Source of the DNA: Bacteriovoracaceae bacterium
GTDB taxonomy: Bacteria; Bdellovibrionota; Bacteriovoracia; Bacteriovoracales; Bacteriovoracaceae
Assembly: GCA_947448495.1 (NCBI GenBank)
Contig: CANFNX010000011.1
Location: forward strand, 1 to 35,329
Length of the DNA stretch: 35,329 nucleotides
Direction of reading: 5' to 3'
Below, one piece after another: positions 23,365-34,282 of this stretch; position 1 is the stretch's first letter, and each line of letters starts with the position of its first letter. The notes beneath the pieces were generated by a model. That model had not been told where the DNA came from and made no database searches. It was given only the letters and a program-made list of their open reading frames with translations. The translations under genes were made by a program, and so were the position numbers.

Positions 23365-23390
23365 ACGGGGGTCCACGGGCCCCCGTTTTT
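23365..23390 (+). terminator. Rho-independent terminator
   Basis: acggggg-tccacggg-cccccgt stem-loop followed by a T run. Confidence 0.85.
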
Positions 23391-24723
23391 AGGCTACTAC
23401 TTCGTTGACGTGGAAGACCTTTCCTCGACCAGACTTTTTAGACAAGTACATCATCTTATCAGCGAATTCGATAATAGACTTTGCGCTCGTGGCATCACTT
23501 GGATATTCTGCAATACCAATGGAAAGTGAAAGATTATATTTAGTTCCATCCTCGATTTTAAACTCCGCCGCCTTAACACATTCAGAAATACGTATCGCTA
23601 TTTTTTTTGCTTCAATCAAATTCGATTTGGGCAATAAAACAATGAATTCATCTCCACCATAACGGTAAACAAGATCACTTGCACGAAGTTGTGTTTTAAG
23701 GACAGCGGCCATATCTATCAATAATTGACTACCGACAACATGCCCATATTTGTCATTCACATTTTTGAAATAATCGATATCGATAAACAACAAACTAAAA
23801 ACCTGCTTATCAATTGGATAGCCAGAAATATAATAATCTAAATCAAGTGTGAGTTTTCTCTGATTAAAGAGCCCAGTAACTTCATCCGTTAAGGAAAGAA
23901 GTTTAATTTCTTGTCGTGCTTTACTTTCAGTCAATATAGACAAGGATGTTCTTAGAACATTCGACAAATAATCACTTAAAATTTCAGTCACAGAAAAAAC
24001 AGACTGATTGACTGCGACAAGGTAAGAAAATTTATCAGGGCCGGTCTTGATAAGGAAGTGAAATCTGTCTTCAATGAAACGTAGACCAAAAATCAGTCCA
24101 GAGGAATCGCCAATGAATCTTTTAATTCTCTTCTGCTGATGAGAATTTAAATTAAATTCCAACTTTAAATCTCTTACCATCTGAACCTCATTAGCAAAGA
24201 AGGTATGTTTTTCAATTTCAAAAAAAAGATTTAAATATTGATTAAGGGTGATTGAGATATCTTCTAAAGATGAAAAACTCTCAGGACGAGAAAAAAGATG
24301 AAGGACAGCTCTTTCTGGATTCCAATGACCACTCTGCATAACTTCATGCAGCTGCAATCTAAAGAGCATGGATCGAAGTTCAGATGGGTCAAGAGGTACG
24401 GTTAATAGATCAAAAAGCCCTGCCCTGAAAGCTCCGATCGCCCCGCCCAGGTCGACTCTGGAAGATAGCAATGTAATAGCGGCCCTAGGAAGCTCCATCG
24501 AAATTTTCCGAACGTCCTGTATAATTTTATGACTTTGCTTATTAGAAAAATAAAAAACCGCTTCGATTGATTTTCTATGCATGCCAGAAAGCTCATCGAT
24601 CTCACTAATAAAGCTAATTTTATATTTAAAACCATTGGCCTTTAGTGTCTTTTTTATCACTTCAATTGCAATACTATCCAGACCAATCGCCAAAATTTCA
24701 AAAAACTTATTTTTCTTCATCAT
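23389..24723 (-). CDS. GGDEF diguanylate cyclase with degenerate receiver-like N-terminal domain
   Basis: DEVTGLFNQRKLTLDL, FIDIDYFKNVNDKYGH, RASDLVYRYGGDEF (I-site RxxD plus active GGDEF), SIGIAEYP, ADKMMYLSKKSGR. Confidence 0.93.
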   Translation of the reverse strand: MMKKNKFFEILAIGLDSIAIEVIKKTLKANGFKYKISFISEIDELSGMHRKSIEAVFYFSNKQSHKIIQDVRKISMELPRAAITLLSSRVDLGGAIGAFRAGLFDLLTVPLDPSELRSMLFRLQLHEVMQSGHWNPERAVLHLFSRPESFSSLEDISITLNQYLNLFFEIEKHTFFANEVQMVRDLKLEFNLNSHQQKRIKRFIGDSSGLIFGLRFIEDRFHFLIKTGPDKFSYLVAVNQSVFSVTEILSDYLSNVLRTSLSILTESKARQEIKLLSLTDEVTGLFNQRKLTLDLDYYISGYPIDKQVFSLLFIDIDYFKNVNDKYGHVVGSQLLIDMAAVLKTQLRASDLVYRYGGDEFIVLLPKSNLIEAKKIAIRISECVKAAEFKIEDGTKYNLSLSIGIAEYPSDATSAKSIIEFADKMMYLSKKSGRGKVFHVNEVVA

Positions 24724-26814
24724 TTACATATCAATGTTTTTTTTCAATGCCTCAAGAACACCTGCTTTATCTGACTCATCTTCTAGTACAGATATCGCAC
24801 TTCGTAGAGTTTTAATCGCCTTGTCTAATTTATCCTCTAACTCAAAACGACTTTCAACAGAACGTTTTTCTTGAACGGATATTGATTCCATATCAAATTC
24901 CATTGAATCAATTTTCCTTTTTAGTTCAAGAATTTTCAGATCGCGGTGCCTAATCTGTGTTTCAGAATCTGCCTTCAGAAGCTCTAATTTCTGCTCGAGC
25001 TCTCTTTCTCTCATTTGGATTCTTTTTATGTCGATCTTATTTCGCTGAGCAGATTTATCAATTTCGACCTGGAGAATTTTATTTTTCTCTTCGAGAATTA
25101 ATTTCTTCTCATCGTGCAATTTTAACCGATCTCTCAACTCACTAATTTCTTCATTCAATTTTTTTCGGATGATTGTTAATTCAATTTTCTTTTCATCCAA
25201 ATCGGCACGAAGAGTTAAGTTTTGACGGGCCTGTAGAACCTTCTCCTCTTCAAGTTTGACGATTTTTAAGAGTAATTCCTCTCTATCAACCCTCAAATTG
25301 GACAATGTTGCTTGCAACCTCTCCATCTCTGCAGAATAGGCGCCTGAAATTTCTTTTATATCCCTCGCAGAATTCTGAGAGACCTGAAATCGAGACTCTC
25401 TTCCATCTTTTTCTTCTTTGGTTTTCTTTTTTGGCTTCTCTTCTTTTGGAGCCTCATTTTCAACTTCTGAAGAAAAATTAATACTATCCAAATTAAGATC
25501 ATCTGAAACGAGTGGCTTATCGATATCACGATCTTCAGATTTATCATCAGGGACGTTATCCTGAGCATCATCCGATAAATTTAAGCCAAACATTTCGTCA
25601 TCTGAACTTGATACTTCGACCTTGAGACCCACTTGAGAAGCATCTAGATCCATAATCTCATCAATTTCTTTTAATTTTTCTTTCGCAGCTGCCGACAGAT
25701 CGAGATCTTCTTCAGTTCCCAAAGAAACAATATCGTCTGAGAGATTAAGCTCTTCACTATTAGAAAAATCTAGATCTCCACCAATTTCATCAGCGTCATC
25801 AAGATTTAAAACGCTTTCCAGCTCCCTGTCCTCCCCTGCACTTAGGTCAGGAATGTCTTCACTAAAACTTAATTCATCTTCTAATGAGGGAGCTCCAAGC
25901 AAATCATCTTCACCAAGTGTGATCTCTGTTCCGCTCTCCTCATCTAGAGAAAGCTCATCCTCTGTCGTAAAGTCACTGGATTCATCTGATGCATTGACCT
26001 CGTCATCCTCAGTTAACTCAGAGGACAGATCGAGATCCATTCCCTCATCCAATTGTTCACTCTCGGTGAACTCTGGCACCTCAGCTTCATCCGCAAGATC
26101 AAGGACTTCTTGATCACCCAGGTTGAGCTCCAACCCCTCTTCTTCAACAATTTGTGAATCAGCTCCACCCGTGGGGTCAATTTCAAGATCCCCTAAATCA
26201 TCTAGTGAAAGTTCTTGATCTTTGTCACTCATAGAATCTCCCGCAATGGACTGCTCATCGATATCAGTCTTCTTTAAAATATTCGTGCTTTGCCAAGCAG
26301 GTCGTTCGCGTTCCTGCTGATAAACTTCATTAAAAATTTTCTCAATAAACTTATTTTCGGCCATTTTTTTAAGCGCAAGGAGCTTATGCTGATCTTCAAT
26401 TTTTATTGAATTAGTTCCTGCTTGCTCAAGCCTATTGCCCTTCAAGTTCATTTGTTGAGGCCCCATTCCACCAAGCAATTTTTCCAAATCTTGATTGGAG
26501 ATATCCTCCGTAATATAGGCATCCCCGGCCACCGGAGTTGATTGATGAGTTAATTGCTCTTGATGATTAGGTGAGGTTGCAATATAAATTATTTTGGCAT
26601 TGGGCCGTAGATCTCTAATAATTAAAACCATTTCATCCAATTCTTCATCTCCGACGAGAAAGGGGGCAAAGAAATATGCTTCTTGAGAATGAGTAGACTT
26701 TAAATTTGAAAGGTCTTTCTTCGAATTTATATAATTGGCAGATTTTAAAATAGGAATCTTACTCTGAAATTGCTTCAAATTTTGTGTAGGCACAATGATG
26801 AGATAGTACGCCAT
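24724..26814 (-). CDS. Pseudo-receiver-like N-terminus, long acidic repetitive linker and C-terminal coiled coil
   Basis: Continuous 696-aa ORF; middle is Asp/Glu/Ser/Leu-rich (ELSLDDLGDLEIDP, ELNLSDDIVSLGTEEDLDLS), C-terminal ~220 aa heptad-like. Confidence 0.85.
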   Translation of the reverse strand: MAYYLIIVPTQNLKQFQSKIPILKSANYINSKKDLSNLKSTHSQEAYFFAPFLVGDEELDEMVLIIRDLRPNAKIIYIATSPNHQEQLTHQSTPVAGDAYITEDISNQDLEKLLGGMGPQQMNLKGNRLEQAGTNSIKIEDQHKLLALKKMAENKFIEKIFNEVYQQERERPAWQSTNILKKTDIDEQSIAGDSMSDKDQELSLDDLGDLEIDPTGGADSQIVEEEGLELNLGDQEVLDLADEAEVPEFTESEQLDEGMDLDLSSELTEDDEVNASDESSDFTTEDELSLDEESGTEITLGEDDLLGAPSLEDELSFSEDIPDLSAGEDRELESVLNLDDADEIGGDLDFSNSEELNLSDDIVSLGTEEDLDLSAAAKEKLKEIDEIMDLDASQVGLKVEVSSSDDEMFGLNLSDDAQDNVPDDKSEDRDIDKPLVSDDLNLDSINFSSEVENEAPKEEKPKKKTKEEKDGRESRFQVSQNSARDIKEISGAYSAEMERLQATLSNLRVDREELLLKIVKLEEEKVLQARQNLTLRADLDEKKIELTIIRKKLNEEISELRDRLKLHDEKKLILEEKNKILQVEIDKSAQRNKIDIKRIQMRERELEQKLELLKADSETQIRHRDLKILELKRKIDSMEFDMESISVQEKRSVESRFELEDKLDKAIKTLRSAISVLEDESDKAGVLEALKKNIDM

Positions 26815-26957
26815 GTGGATTCCTTATAAATAATGATAACTTAGGATGGAATTAATGGCAGTTCCGGCAAAGATTGCTAGGCGAAGTTTTCGAGGGAATT
26901 CTTGCTTGATCTTGCTCACCATAATACAATTAAAAAGCTAAATGTGAGGGAGGCTTC

Positions 26958-27932
26958 TTGAGAAAAGTAATTCAACTTGCTTTATATTTGACTTTTTCAA
27001 TCGGACAAGTTTGGTCGTCGGATTTTTTACCATATAATATTCTTATGATGGATGGAAAATATGCCCACCATGTGATTCTCGTTGAAAAAGCAACTCATAA
27101 ACTACACCTTTATGAAAACAGCTCGACTCTCCCTACCCTCGTTAAAACCTACAGCACCGCCACTGGTAAATTTAAAGGTGATAAAGCTCAGAATGGTGAT
27201 CATAAAACCCCTGAGGGAATTTACACTATTTACGAATTTTTATCGGATGCTGAGTTACACCGAAGACATGGTAAGTATGCTGACATTTATGGTAGTGGCG
27301 CTTTCCCTATGGACTATCCGAATTTTATGGATTTAAGAGAAGGTAAAACTGGCGGTGGTATTTGGTTACATTCCACTGATGATGATTCTAGAATTTCAAA
27401 AGGTTTAGATTCTAAAGGCTGCGTTGTACTACAGAACGATGACCTCAAAGATATTTCCCAGTATATAGAACTAGAGCACACTCCCATTATTGTCGTTCAG
27501 GATGTGTTGTACTTATCCAAATCTACCTGGGAAAGAAATCGTAAAGAAATAAATGACACGGTAACGAAGTGGGCCAAGGCATGGCAGGACAAAGACTTCG
27601 AAAACTACATTTCAAATTACGACTCCGTGAACTTCTTCGATAAAAGCAAAGGGAGCTATCAATCCTATAAAAACTATAAAAAGGCTGTCTTCTCCCGGCC
27701 GGATTCTCCGATAATAAAGCTAGACTTTGTTTCCATCATGGTAAACTTAGAATATGCTGTCGTCCATCTTCAGCAAGATTACAAATCCTCCATTATCAAT
27801 GATATTGGGAAGAAAACCTTATACTTGAAAAAAGATGCTAACTACGACTGGAAAATTGTTGGGGAACAGTGGTCAAAAACAAATTCTTCACAGGAAGGAT
27901 TCAAACCATCAAATCGTTTTTTTAAAAAATAA
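26958..27932 (+). CDS. Secreted L,D-transpeptidase-fold (YkuD) protein with NTF2-like C-terminal domain, Csd6/Pgp2/Bd1075-like
   Basis: TTG start with GAGGGAGG SD; signal peptide; GGIWLHSTDDDSRISKGLDSKGCVVL catalytic His/Cys region; C-terminal WAKAWQDKDFENYISNYDSVNFFDKSKGSYQSYKNYKK. Confidence 0.85.
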   Translation: MRKVIQLALYLTFSIGQVWSSDFLPYNILMMDGKYAHHVILVEKATHKLHLYENSSTLPTLVKTYSTATGKFKGDKAQNGDHKTPEGIYTIYEFLSDAELHRRHGKYADIYGSGAFPMDYPNFMDLREGKTGGGIWLHSTDDDSRISKGLDSKGCVVLQNDDLKDISQYIELEHTPIIVVQDVLYLSKSTWERNRKEINDTVTKWAKAWQDKDFENYISNYDSVNFFDKSKGSYQSYKNYKKAVFSRPDSPIIKLDFVSIMVNLEYAVVHLQQDYKSSIINDIGKKTLYLKKDANYDWKIVGEQWSKTNSSQEGFKPSNRFFKK

Positions 27933-27934
27933 AT

Positions 27935-28678
27935 ATGAAAGAAGCAATTCAAAACTTAAGTAAGGAAATATCGATTGTTATATACGATGCTCCACTTCCT
28001 CCACGCTATTTAAGATTTTCAAAAAAACTTCTTCGATTTTTATTTATAGTATTACCTGTAGGAATTGGACTTATTTTATTTGTGTCCATTTTTTTCGGTT
28101 TTTCTTCGAAAGTTAAAGAAGCTCCAAAATCAAGCTTCTCCTCAATTGTGACAAGTAATGATTCTAAAATATCTGATCTGGAATCTGATCTGAATGCATT
28201 GAAATTAAGTAATCAACAACTCCAGATCAAACTCTCAACAGTTAACTCAAGTGACTCAAATCAGGATGACCTGTATTTGATGAACATAAAAAGACCTTAT
28301 GGTATGCAAAATTTGGTTGCTCAAAACAAAGTCACTCTTGATCAATTTGAATTTGTACCTTCTCAGGATAAGATTAATTTGAAATTTCAAATTATCAGCA
28401 CGACTCCTGAAAACAGAGTAGCCGGTCACATTTTAGTCTTTATGATTTCCAAGATGGGAATCCTTGCCTATCCTGCTGAAGCAAATCAATCCATGTCAGT
28501 TGGTATCAAATATGCCCAAGGTGAGCCTTTTGCTGTATCACGACTGAGACCAACGAATGCTGAGTTTTCTTATAGACCCAACACGGATACAATAAAATTC
28601 TTTATCTATATTTTCTCAAGAGAGGGTGACCTTCTCAGCGTCAAAGAAACTGAAGAGTATAAGCTTTTGGAGAAATAA
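27935..28678 (+). CDS. Hypothetical single-TM protein with coiled coil and C-terminal beta-rich domain
   Basis: TM helix LLRFLFIVLPVGIGLILFVSIFFGF, coiled coil KISDLESDLNALKLSNQQLQIKL, then beta-like domain; 2-3 nt from both neighbours. Confidence 0.8.
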   Translation: MKEAIQNLSKEISIVIYDAPLPPRYLRFSKKLLRFLFIVLPVGIGLILFVSIFFGFSSKVKEAPKSSFSSIVTSNDSKISDLESDLNALKLSNQQLQIKLSTVNSSDSNQDDLYLMNIKRPYGMQNLVAQNKVTLDQFEFVPSQDKINLKFQIISTTPENRVAGHILVFMISKMGILAYPAEANQSMSVGIKYAQGEPFAVSRLRPTNAEFSYRPNTDTIKFFIYIFSREGDLLSVKETEEYKLLEK

Positions 28679-28681
28679 TCT

Positions 28682-29035
28682 ATGAATGATCAAGATTTTA
28701 AAAAATTTAACTATAATGTATTAGGATCTAAATCATTTATTAACGGAACAATCGTTATCAGTGGTGACAGCATTATCAATTCACATATTGATGGAAATTT
28801 GGAAGTGAGAGATGCAGGAAAACTTGTCTTAGAAAGAGGCAGCTTTATTAAAGGGAAAATCAAGGCCATTGACCTCGAAATTTTTGGAGAAGTCGTTGGC
28901 GAAATTGAATGCTCTGGACTTGTATCGATACGATCAAGCGCGAAAGTCATAGGCTCAATAAAATCTTCTAAACTGGTGATTTATCCAGGGGCCATGGTTG
29001 AAATGAGTGCTAACTCTCAAGAAAGCAATCTATAA
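28682..29035 (+). CDS. Bactofilin
   Basis: GSKSFINGTIVISGDSIINSHIDGNLEVRDAGKLVLERGSFIKGKIKAIDLEIFGEVVGEIECSGLVSIRSSAKVIGSIKSSKLVIYPGAMVEM right-handed beta-helix periodicity. Confidence 0.93.
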   Translation: MNDQDFKKFNYNVLGSKSFINGTIVISGDSIINSHIDGNLEVRDAGKLVLERGSFIKGKIKAIDLEIFGEVVGEIECSGLVSIRSSAKVIGSIKSSKLVIYPGAMVEMSANSQESNL

Positions 29036-30394
29036 AAAGTCAGTAAACTTTAAAATTTTTACCGGTCGTATTCTTGAAAGACTTTTCTCTAAGGCTTTAT
29101 CTCCTACGACAACAATCGTAAGTCTGTCCCAGTTAAAAGCCTCTAAACTCGATTTCGCAAGTGCATCCATGGTCAACGAAGAGATCGTTGAGGGAAAGCT
29201 TACAAGTTCATTTAAATTTCTTCCCTGATGATCGTAGATCATAATCTGAGAAAGAAAGGCTTCACTTTCTTCAAAGCCAAAAGCAAATCCACCGATTTGG
29301 TGGGACTGTTGATGTTTAAATTCTTCTGCAGAGAATTTTTTAGAACTCATGTCTTGAAAGACATCTCTCACAACTGAGATTGCTTCTGCCGCCGTCTCAT
29401 TCTTGGAAAAAGTCATAATACCTGCACGTCCATAATCTCTTTGCATAGAAACATAAGCACCTGCAGAATAGGTAATTCCTCTTTTCACTCTTAATTCTTG
29501 AACCAGCTTAGAAGTAAATCCTCCGCCCAAAAATCCTGCGAGAAAAAGATAGTTATCATATTTCCCCTTCACTTCACTTTCAGTTAAGTAGCGACCAATT
29601 CTAATTTGAGCTTGATTCGCACCAGATACAGGAACAAGATAAATAGCCGATTGCTGTACCGGTTTCTTAAGTTCAACTCGCTGTACATTCGCATGACTCG
29701 ACCAAGGACATTTTTTGAGAATGATGTCTTTCATCTTTAATGCACTCGATGGCCCCGAGAGATAAAGAACCTTTTTCGCTTGGTTCATTCTAGTAAGTCT
29801 TTCTTTCAAGATAGAAGAATTCAACTTGTCGAAGTTAGAGAGATTCCCTTCAGCAGGTAATGAGAAAGGAGTGTCTTGAAGAGAGACTTGTCGAAATATC
29901 CGATCTGCTAAAGCAGCATGAGAAGTCACTAAATTTTTAAGGTGACTTTTCGATCGACTAACATATGAATTTAGTTCTTTTTCTGGATACTGAGCATCTT
30001 TAAAAAGCTCACAGACCTTTGTCACGACGGGGTCGAGGTCCTTCGTTAGCCCTTGAATACTGTAAGTCGAATACTCGTGATTCACATTTGTTTTAACTTT
30101 CGTTCCATAAAAATCAAAGAACGCCGAAATTTCTCTTTGATTTTCTTTTTTTGATCCAGACGAAAGTTGGTCAAAGGTCGCTTGAGTTAGGCCAGGAAAA
30201 GGATCTGACAAAGCACCATCTTGAAAATAAAACATGGCAGAGTAACGTGGAAACTTGTTATCTTCAATCCATACAACTTCTAAATCACCCCATTCTTTTC
30301 TCTCAACTAAATCCAAAAATGATGAGGCATAGACGTTAACAGATTGAATCAAAAAGATGCAGAATATAATTATTTTTTTCATGTTTTCTCTCAC
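29030..30394 (-). CDS. M16 family peptidase-like subunit lacking HXXEH (non-catalytic partner)
   Basis: Signal peptide; M16 fold sequence without HXXEH; LVQELRVKRGITYSAGAYV R/Y-type motif retained. Confidence 0.85.
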   Translation of the reverse strand: MRENMKKIIIFCIFLIQSVNVYASSFLDLVERKEWGDLEVVWIEDNKFPRYSAMFYFQDGALSDPFPGLTQATFDQLSSGSKKENQREISAFFDFYGTKVKTNVNHEYSTYSIQGLTKDLDPVVTKVCELFKDAQYPEKELNSYVSRSKSHLKNLVTSHAALADRIFRQVSLQDTPFSLPAEGNLSNFDKLNSSILKERLTRMNQAKKVLYLSGPSSALKMKDIILKKCPWSSHANVQRVELKKPVQQSAIYLVPVSGANQAQIRIGRYLTESEVKGKYDNYLFLAGFLGGGFTSKLVQELRVKRGITYSAGAYVSMQRDYGRAGIMTFSKNETAAEAISVVRDVFQDMSSKKFSAEEFKHQQSHQIGGFAFGFEESEAFLSQIMIYDHQGRNLNELVSFPSTISSLTMDALAKSSLEAFNWDRLTIVVVGDKALEKSLSRIRPVKILKFTDFL

Positions 30395-31737
30395 TTATTC
30401 TCATTCCAAACAGTAACAAAGACTGTTGGTTTGCTGATTAACTCCAGACAAGAATTTTTGACATCATCAAGGGTTACACTTTCATAAAGATCCAATTCTT
30501 CCTTATAAAACTTCCAATCACCAAAGATAGAATGTCGCTCACCTAAAAACGAGGCAAGACCTGCGTTTGTATCAAGCCCACTGTATAAACTAGAAAGATA
30601 GTTGTTTTTGACCTTTTGTAAGTTTGTGGGAGTGATATCCCTTTCACAGAAGCTCTGCATTGATTTTTTTAAACTTTCTCGAAACTCTTTGAGCTTAACC
30701 CCTTTTACAAGTTCCCCTCCAATAAAAAAGAATCCTGATTTCTCTAATGATTGGTGAGCAGCATAAATGGAGGTTGAAATAGGCTTATCAACTAATACAT
30801 ATTGATTTACGAGTGAAGAGCTTTTTCCGGAACCAATAATAGAAGCAAGAATATCCAGCGCATATCCCTTTGGATGACCGGCTTTATAGGTGGGATAGGC
30901 AAACATAAAAAGCGGACTCGGGGATTCTCCTTTCTTGGCAACAATCAAATCTTTTTTTATTTTTGGTTCGAACATTTCATCCGTTAATGAAGCATGCGCC
31001 CCCTCCACTGTCGGTGAAGATGGAATTTTTCCAAATTTTTCTTCTATAATATTTTTCGCTTTCTCTAGGTCAAAGTCACCCACGAGAATGAGAATCGCAT
31101 TATTTGGGGCATAATATTTCTTAAAATAAGTAAAGATCTGATCTCGAGAAACTGATTTTAAATCCGAAATATCTCCAATCACAGATCGACCATAGGGAGT
31201 GCCAGAGTATAGCTCTTGCATAAGCTCAAGATAAAGTTGGCCGCGTGGCGAATTCTCATAACGCATTTTTCTCTCTTCAAGCACAACTTGTCGCTCTTTT
31301 GAGAAATCGTCTGGGTCTAAAAGTAAATTTTCCATTCGATCGGCTTCAATATCTAAAATTTTTTCTAGCTCGCTTGAAGGCAAATTTTCATAGTAAACAG
31401 TTTGATCATTTGTTGTGTATGCGTTTGTCGACCCACCACTTCCTTCAATAATAAAATCAATCGTGTTTTTTCCGTATTTTTTGGCGCCTTTGAACATCAT
31501 ATGCTCTAGGAAATGGCTTGCTCCAGTAATTCCAGGGACCTCATTTTTCCCCCCCACTTTATAAAACGTTTGCACCGAAAAAATGGGAAGCTTATGATTT
31601 GGAACCATCAGCACGGTTAATCCATTACTAAGCTTAAGCTCCTTTACATCTAGCTTTATACTTCCAGACAAAGTTTTAGGAGACTTCACTGAAGCACATC
31701 CAAAAAGCAGAGCGAAAAGCATAAAATAAAATTTCAT
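30391..31737 (-). CDS. M16 family zinc metallopeptidase, predicted lipoprotein
   Basis: Lipobox-like MLFALLFGCAS; ASHFLEHMMFKG (HXXEH) and VVLEERKMRYENSPRG; ATG at 31737 preferred. Confidence 0.93.
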   Translation of the reverse strand: MKFYFMLFALLFGCASVKSPKTLSGSIKLDVKELKLSNGLTVLMVPNHKLPIFSVQTFYKVGGKNEVPGITGASHFLEHMMFKGAKKYGKNTIDFIIEGSGGSTNAYTTNDQTVYYENLPSSELEKILDIEADRMENLLLDPDDFSKERQVVLEERKMRYENSPRGQLYLELMQELYSGTPYGRSVIGDISDLKSVSRDQIFTYFKKYYAPNNAILILVGDFDLEKAKNIIEEKFGKIPSSPTVEGAHASLTDEMFEPKIKKDLIVAKKGESPSPLFMFAYPTYKAGHPKGYALDILASIIGSGKSSSLVNQYVLVDKPISTSIYAAHQSLEKSGFFFIGGELVKGVKLKEFRESLKKSMQSFCERDITPTNLQKVKNNYLSSLYSGLDTNAGLASFLGERHSIFGDWKFYKEELDLYESVTLDDVKNSCLELISKPTVFVTVWNENK

Positions 31738-31753
31738 AGTAATATCCTCGATG

Positions 31754-32563
31754 ATGAACAAGATCACGATTTTGGGTTCCGGTACTAGTACAGGTGTACC
31801 TATTTTAGGTTGTAAGTGTGGAATTTGCCAGTCAAAGGATCCTAGGAATAATCGTCTCAGGTCCTCAGCACTGCTAGAGCTTACATCTAAGAAAAATATT
31901 TTGATTGATGCGTCTCCTGACCTTAGGGCTCAACTACTGAGGGCCCGAACAGATTCACTCAATGGAGTCATCATAACCCATGATCACGCAGACCATACTC
32001 ATGGTATAGATGATCTTAGGGCCTTTAGCTTTGAAAGAACCTCAGAGATTCCCGTCTACACCGATCCTCATTGTATGAATTCTCTTACCATGAAATTTCC
32101 TTATATCTTCCAGCGCGAAAAAATTTTTGCTCAAAGACCAATTCTGGGAGGTGGAATTCCTCATCTTGAACTCCACCCTATTCTTCCGGGCTTAAATGTT
32201 GTTTGCGATGAAGAGTTTCATTTTTTTTCTCTCCCTCATGGTTATGGGAGCACATTGAGTTTTATTCACCGTCGACTTGGTTATATTATCGACTGCGTCG
32301 AAATCTCTCAGGAAGCACTTGATTTTTTTTCTAACGCTAAGCTCGAGATATTGGTTATCGATTGTTTACGTTATGATCCCCATCAAACTCATCTCCATTT
32401 CGATAAAACTTTACGCTATATAGAAATGATTTCCCCTAGGCTGGCCATCTTAACCCATATGGGTCACGAGATTGATTATCTCGACATAATTAATCAGCTT
32501 AAACGGCGAGGCATCAAAAATGTTATTCCAGCGATTGATGGACAGAGCTTCCTCTATTCTTAG
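31754..32563 (+). CDS. MBL-fold metallohydrolase, PhnP-like
   Basis: ILGSGTSTGVPILGCKCGICQSKDPRNNRLRSSALLEL, THDHADHTHGIDDLRAF, LTHMGHEIDY. Confidence 0.88.
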   Translation: MNKITILGSGTSTGVPILGCKCGICQSKDPRNNRLRSSALLELTSKKNILIDASPDLRAQLLRARTDSLNGVIITHDHADHTHGIDDLRAFSFERTSEIPVYTDPHCMNSLTMKFPYIFQREKIFAQRPILGGGIPHLELHPILPGLNVVCDEEFHFFSLPHGYGSTLSFIHRRLGYIIDCVEISQEALDFFSNAKLEILVIDCLRYDPHQTHLHFDKTLRYIEMISPRLAILTHMGHEIDYLDIINQLKRRGIKNVIPAIDGQSFLYS

Positions 32564-33820: not shown

Positions 33821-34282
33821 ATGGGTAAACTTCAAAATATTTTAATGCTGGTTAACCTCGTCATCATGCTTGGTGGTGTAGGAGCTGTTTTTTACGCTCA
33901 CAACATGATTAAGCCGGCCCCAACTGATCAGGCAGCTGAAGCTGAAAGCCTTAAGAGCGGTGCTTTGGAACAAGCACAGGTCAAGGCAGTGCCTATAAAA
34001 AAATTCGTGGTAAATCTGCACTCAGGATCAAATCGTTTGCGATACCTGGATCTGGAAATGAATATTCTACCATTCCAAAATGAACAGGCAGAACTCATTA
34101 AGGCGAGTGAATACATATTTAAAGATATACTAATTGAAATTGCTTCTCATCTTGAACCAGATGACTTGGATACACTGTCTGGGAAAATACTTTTAGAGAA
34201 TAAAATAAAAAAACAGGTTAACACAAAACTAGGTCAACCTGTTGTTAAGCAAATTTATTTTTCGGGCTTCGTGGTTCAGTAA
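33821..34282 (+). CDS. FliL-like flagellar basal body-associated protein
   Basis: N-terminal TM, VKAVPIKKFVVNLHSGSNRLRYLDLEMNILPF...IKASEYIFKDILIEIASHLEPDDL, VKQIYFSGFVVQ C-terminus. Confidence 0.8.
   Translation: MGKLQNILMLVNLVIMLGGVGAVFYAHNMIKPAPTDQAAEAESLKSGALEQAQVKAVPIKKFVVNLHSGSNRLRYLDLEMNILPFQNEQAELIKASEYIFKDILIEIASHLEPDDLDTLSGKILLENKIKKQVNTKLGQPVVKQIYFSGFVVQ

Follow-up and report, generated by a model that had tools for sequence, protein, structure and literature searches.

A bactofilin operon with a predicted Bd1075-type LD-carboxypeptidase and a candidate membrane adaptor in Bacteriovoracaceae

Bd1075 is the curvature LD-carboxypeptidase of Bdellovibrio bacteriovorus, and its NTF2 domain places it on the convex face of the cell, for which, as for curvature itself, residues W303 and Y274 are required (PMC8938487). 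According to the same authors, no mechanism is known for sending proteins to one lateral side wall (PMC8938487). The NTF2 domain of Pgp2 binds peptidoglycan fragments, according to work cited in that paper (PMC8938487).

Several bactofilins act together with bitopic membrane proteins. The LmdC proteins of Hyphomonas neptunium and Rhodospirillum rubrum, whose genes overlap bacA, combine a short cytoplasmic region and a transmembrane (TM) helix with coiled coils and an M23 peptidase domain, and they require their cytoplasmic beta-hairpin to bind BacA (PMC10945521). In H. pylori, the bitopic SH3b protein Csd5 contacts CcmA through a short cytoplasmic appendage, in a complex described without Csd6 (PMC9448923).

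Here we analyze a locus of a Bacteriovoracaceae genome where a predicted LD-carboxypeptidase is encoded in one operon with a TM protein and a bactofilin. Literature on LD-carboxypeptidase or Csd6 together with bactofilins is scarce, the Bd1075 and Campylobacter papers, checked by term search, describe no such operon, and our literature search returned no work pairing a bactofilin with Halobacteriovorax.

The operon, its enzyme and its bactofilin

The window, i.e. the whole stretch of 35,329 nucleotides that was analyzed, includes the following features:

26815..26957, no strand: divergent intergenic region of 143 bp (read from the sequence)
26958..27932, + strand: YkuD plus NTF2-like (Cds6_C) gene, 324 aa, TTG start (Pfam, PDB match, residue conservation)
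27935..28678, + strand: middle (TM) gene, bitopic protein of an unnamed family, 247 aa (AlphaFold2, Foldseek, alignment)
28682..29035, + strand: bactofilin gene, the second (non-par) copy of the genome, 117 aa (PF04519)

With start codons assigned mechanically, 2 nt separate the YkuD from the middle gene and 3 nt the middle from the bactofilin gene, and a strong Shine-Dalgarno-like GAGGGAGG lies directly 5' of the TTG start. The operon promoter must sit within the 143-bp region; a consensus promoter scan of that region gave no convincing site, and a promoter/terminator scan and an Rfam search returned nothing useful.

Concerning the surroundings, two genes are transcribed divergently from the operon (23389-26814, - strand), one for a GGDEF protein and one for an acidic coiled-coil protein of 696 aa that has no Pfam family match. 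Homologues of this pair adjoin the TM-bactofilin genes in many families, and the GGDEF neighbour hints at a possible c-di-GMP link. A tandem M16 peptidase pair (29030-31767, - strand) is convergent with the operon; homologous M16 pairs lie 3' of TM-bactofilin in family f8, whereas in f6 and f11 they lie 5' of a YkuD-NTF2 gene that stands alone. The window also encodes a FliL-like protein (33821-34282; PF03748, E 1e-15), with no flagellar cluster visible around it there.

The product of the first gene starts with a Sec-type leader (judged by eye), followed by a YkuD domain (residues 38-179; Pfam PF03734, E 1.1e-18, above the curated cut-off) and a Cds6_C NTF2-like domain (residues 198-304; PF24125, E 1.3e-16, 61.3 bits against a cut-off of 27). 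In a PDB sequence search its nearest solved structure is Bd1075 (7o21, E 3.4e-49, residues 20-309), with further matches to Pgp2 (6xj6, E 2e-24) and Csd6 (4xzz, E 2e-21); with all three it shares the YkuD plus C-terminal NTF2 architecture and predicted secretion. We predict that it is a secreted LD-carboxypeptidase of the Bd1075/Csd6/Pgp2 type. The alignment to 7o21 pairs H138, C155, V157, Y275 and W305 of the window enzyme with H141, C156, V158, Y274 and W303 of Bd1075, i.e. the catalytic H/C, V158 and both NTF2 pocket residues have equivalents, whereas a Ser occupies the position of A142. With the Y274 and W303 equivalents, the NTF2 domain is of the extended type known from Bd1075. Among 61 distinct family members the active-site H and C are invariant and the pocket Tyr is present in 60, while at the position of W303 51 members carry W and the remaining 10 F or Y. 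A further difference from Bd1075 is that the window gene shares its operon with a TM protein and a bactofilin, neither of which adjoins YkuD in the Bdellovibrio-like families sampled.

The third gene encodes a bactofilin (PF04519, E 4.8e-18, above the Pfam cut-off). The initial annotation had read the locus as three + strand genes 2-3 nt apart, the first a YkuD protein with an NTF2-like C-terminus akin to Csd6, Pgp2 and Bd1075 and the last a bactofilin, and the coordinates, gaps, HMM matches and PDB matches given above agree with it on each of these points.

The window's genome has two bactofilins, the operon copy (65 bits) and a par-type copy (L132, 94 bits). The latter gene, on contig C104, follows parA-parB directly and precedes ATP synthase genes, an arrangement similar to that of the par-linked bactofilins of Myxococcus. 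The operon copy is a divergent, putatively specialised paralogue linked to the TM protein. An N-terminal membrane-targeting peptide is present in many, not all, bactofilins. The N-terminus of the operon copy, MNDQDFKKFNYNVLG, is acidic and looks unlike the BacA membrane peptide MFSKQAKS; this peptide has been described, and an overproduced membrane-bound client can substitute for it (PMC12448750). An acidic N-terminus, combined with such substitution of a client for the peptide, fits, without proving, recruitment of the operon bactofilin to the membrane by the middle protein.

The same species also has MreB and an LmdC-like M23 protein (L235), whose gene (C149:472-1530) adjoins secA. The latter has a match at E <= 1e-20 in 111 of 114 phylum genomes, many of them via the M23 domain alone, and is likely a second bactofilin client. 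With the parAB-cluster bactofilin, MreB and this M23 protein in the same genome, the earlier description of the operon as a self-contained module is not established.

The middle protein and known bactofilin clients

No Pfam or NCBIfam family above cut-off, no PDB sequence match and no catalytic family was obtained for the middle protein. Its AlphaFold2 model (mean pLDDT 85.5, 30 sequences) contains strands at 11-16 and 24-29 that make up a beta-hairpin (11-29), a single TM helix (30-60), a coiled-coil helix (68-101) and a beta domain (~119-240), for which Foldseek returned, with modest scores, Ig/Fn3-like sandwiches such as ApaG, intracellular proteinase inhibitor and factor XIII domains. The predicted layout is a cytoplasmic beta-hairpin, a TM helix, a coiled coil and an Ig-like periplasmic domain, and the model is in line with the single-TM protein with coiled coil and periplasmic-type domain initially proposed. 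Within the window's family the conserved pattern of the cytoplasmic part is SFIxYxxxxxPxYFxIxK, and in outgroups it is LTVLVFKDNxAxRTFQVP; an N-terminal hairpin scan of the other proteins of 11 genomes found orthologues and otherwise no convincing match.

Some Pfam matches, to DUF6568, DP, DivIC and others, were rejected as identities of the middle protein, being below cut-off and inconsistent over 30 members; they are best explained by its coiled coil and TM helix. DUF6776, presumably a bactofilin neighbour in Gammaproteobacteria, was discarded, as neither Pfam nor the papers searched offered a connection. SH3 families were found neither for the window protein nor among the 25 families listed for the 30 members.

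A close parallel is LmdC-BacA: in the model the middle protein likewise has a cytoplasmic beta-hairpin, a TM helix and a periplasmic coiled coil, and its gene adjoins or overlaps a bactofilin gene (39 of 40 loci, 18 with a 4-bp overlap). However, it has no M23 match in Pfam, a non-enzymatic Ig/Fn3-like sandwich (Foldseek) taking that place, and the wall enzyme of the window operon is a separate predicted LD-carboxypeptidase. The sides of the cell also differ, BacA/LmdC of R. rubrum being found on the inner curve and Bd1075 on the outer. We do not class the middle protein as LmdC, but by analogy it may work like the N-terminal half of LmdC. Csd5 is likewise bitopic, with a periplasmic beta domain and a short cytoplasmic tail that contacts the bactofilin CcmA, but this domain is SH3b rather than an Ig-like sandwich with a coiled coil, and, in contrast to Csd5, the middle protein is encoded beside a bactofilin. 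Csd7 differs in having several TM helices, against the single one modelled at 30-60. PbpC of Caulobacter crescentus is another bitopic client, reaching BacA via its N-terminal cytoplasmic tail; however, it is a wall synthase, and its tail binds by a conserved N-terminal peptide, no hairpin having been described.

The N-terminus of the genome's own M23 protein L235, YYTVMVVPEKQKGVKTFRIP, was modelled over its first 130 residues as a hairpin (4-9/18-23) followed by a helix (24-100). A comparison of M23 and outgroup-middle hairpin profiles aligned 26 columns with an hhalign probability of 83 and a score of 21.3, which was reached by none of 300 column shuffles (maximum 16.7). The hairpin profile of the window's own family gave no significant score against the M23 hairpin, and hairpin-only HMMs, scanned against ORFs, lacked the power to connect TM with M23 proteins. 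The hairpin layout is thus common to middle and M23 proteins, and since the outgroup profile is significant but that of the window's family is not, common descent of the hairpin is only suggested.

Gene order and joint absence

YkuD, TM and bactofilin genes follow each other on one strand at 75 loci (L040 counted, and repeat retrievals of the same locus included), which represent 59 distinct middle proteins. The YkuD-TM gap is mostly -4 to +11 nt and the TM-bactofilin gap most often -4 nt. This order is far beyond chance. Nearly all of these triads belong to the window's family, Bacteriovoracaceae; outside it, the order occurs in one f2 genome and in one 'Deltaproteobacteria' MAG. A search with the middle protein found homologues in 34 of 58 relatives, all of the window's genus and family. 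Many of the genomes searched are incomplete MAGs, and the window's own is ~87% complete.

The YkuD family is much wider than the triad, with Cds6_C in 227 of 291 phylum genomes. In families f6, f7, f8, f11 and others the YkuD-NTF2 gene has different neighbours, so that the triad order is no phylum-wide feature. TM-bactofilin neighbours of this gene are lacking in the sampled Bdellovibrio-like families and in most of the other families sampled. Conservation of the three-gene order in relatives, as anticipated by the initial annotation, therefore holds for the window's family, the f2 genome and the 'Deltaproteobacteria' MAG, but not generally in Bdellovibrionota.

The middle-family profile (A1) matches 150 of the 291 phylum genomes, including families with YkuD elsewhere. 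Of the 40 loci retrieved, 39 have a bactofilin gene directly 3' of the middle gene (at a distance of at most 100 bp in 38, and with a longer overlap in the other; the 4-bp overlaps are ATGA-type), which identifies TM-bactofilin as a conserved core pair. These pairs mostly occur outside the window's family, away from YkuD, and are retained at 20-30% protein identity; YkuD is a lineage-specific third member of the module. The earlier idea that the middle protein is the connector gains support from the LmdC-like hairpin and from its conserved pairing with a bactofilin, which extends to genomes whose YkuD gene lies at another place.

The f2 genome (G060, L166) has YkuD 5' of TM-bactofilin, with no NTF2 match in the 186 YkuD residues present. 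At L040 (1300-4383), the 'Deltaproteobacteria' MAG encodes in a row a YkuD protein with tandem NTF2 domains, a homologue of the middle protein and a bactofilin; the upstream gene is an AMP-ligase, a context unrelated to that of the window. In a YkuD tree, with midpoint rooting and some low supports, the family enzymes fall largely together, with one f8 sequence among them, and those of L040 and L166 lie elsewhere, which points to more than one joining event or to a very old one.

Among the sampled genomes of the window's family, Cds6_C is missing from the four of genus g36 and from G277, G286 and G213, none of which has the middle protein either. G269, whose genome is fragmented, departs from this pattern, with only the middle gene present. 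Bactofilins number zero in the four g36 genomes and one each, of par-type score, in G277 and G286. The four g36 species (L230-L233) thus lack YkuD-NTF2, the putative adaptor and both bactofilins, and retain MreB. Their flanks (M16b-M16a and the coiled-coil gene) are intact and directly adjoin each other, with a junction of ~90-120 bp in two species; in the two others it holds an unrelated opposite-strand ORF of 153-194 aa. This absence supports the triad as a unit, without proving interaction, and as the genes are linked, a single deletion could account for it.

A candidate route from bactofilin to one side wall

With moderate confidence we favour a model where the bactofilin positions the middle protein and the middle protein positions the LD-carboxypeptidase. 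The three genes would form a translationally coupled cell-shape module, whose bactofilin would polymerise on the cytosolic side of the cytoplasmic membrane and be bound there by the cytoplasmic beta-hairpin of the middle protein. The TM helix would span the membrane and the coiled coil carry the Ig-like domain into the periplasm, where the exported LD-carboxypeptidase would concentrate near the Ig-like domain or the coiled coil, most likely via its NTF2 domain with the pocket Y275/W305. By turning tetrapeptides into tripeptides on one side wall, the enzyme would then let turgor bend the cell.

The steps differ in strength. Binding of the hairpin to bactofilin is likely, by analogy with LmdC and from the gene pairing, and the model gives good reason to expect that the adaptor crosses the membrane and exposes the Ig-like domain. 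Bending of the cell by local shortening of tetra- to tripeptides is plausible given the linkage and the biology of Bd1075, and the NTF2-mediated contact between enzyme and adaptor, suggested by the linkage and the targeting role of this domain in Bd1075, is uncertain. As the YkuD-NTF2 genes of the Bdellovibrio-like families sampled have no TM-bactofilin neighbour, convex targeting can work without the adaptor or with a substitute; conversely, with YkuD elsewhere in most TM-bactofilin families, the adaptor must also have a further partner or act on an enzyme encoded at another locus.

The TM protein and the bactofilin might instead be a module with its own task (e.g. another wall enzyme or c-di-GMP-linked assembly), the LD-carboxypeptidase being merely co-transcribed and making no contact. 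This would account for TM-bactofilin without YkuD being the common state outside the window's family, for the GGDEF and coiled-coil genes divergent beside the pair in many families, and for the widespread YkuD-NTF2 genes without such neighbours. However, YkuD is found 5' of TM-bactofilin in two distant lineages too (L040, L166), the triad is jointly absent in g36, and repeated juxtaposition is not needed for co-expression alone; we regard this explanation as rather unlikely. Conserved flanks (CC-GGDEF and the M16 pair) could also suggest that unrelated neighbours merely persist in a slowly rearranging region, and since the flanking genes are also syntenic, linkage within the family partly reflects shared ancestry. 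As the sole explanation, shared ancestry of the whole block was rejected in view of L040 and g36, and near-zero gaps and 4-bp overlaps, TM-bactofilin retained at such low identity and a triad in the unrelated context of L040 make mere persistence of unrelated neighbours highly improbable.

Joint absence and a conserved operon are left unexplained if the enzyme of a true shape module targets itself, its NTF2 domain reading peptidoglycan while the bactofilin and the middle protein set wall synthesis elsewhere and in parallel, as with CcmA-Csd5/Csd7. Targeting might indeed be read from the wall if the NTF2 domain behaves as that of Pgp2 is cited to do (in PMC8938487), Bd1075 localises in Bdellovibrio and YkuD occurs without the triad in the Bdellovibrio-like families sampled, and Csd5 partners CcmA in a complex described without Csd6 (PMC9448923); on balance we consider such self-targeting improbable.

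Under the model of positioning by bactofilin and middle protein, a Bd1075-type enzyme encoded with a bactofilin and a hairpin-bearing membrane protein represents a candidate mechanism for one-sided wall editing, with hairpin residues 11-29, the NTF2 pocket Y275/W305 and the Ig-like domain as candidate interfaces. Tentatively, the middle proteins may constitute an undescribed adaptor family that combines an LmdC-like hairpin with an enzyme-docking Ig-like domain, here docking a Bd1075-type enzyme and so providing a complete inside-to-outside route. If true, non-enzymatic proteins can be bactofilin clients too, and a bactofilin system can carry an LD-carboxypeptidase instead of the usual M23 endopeptidase.
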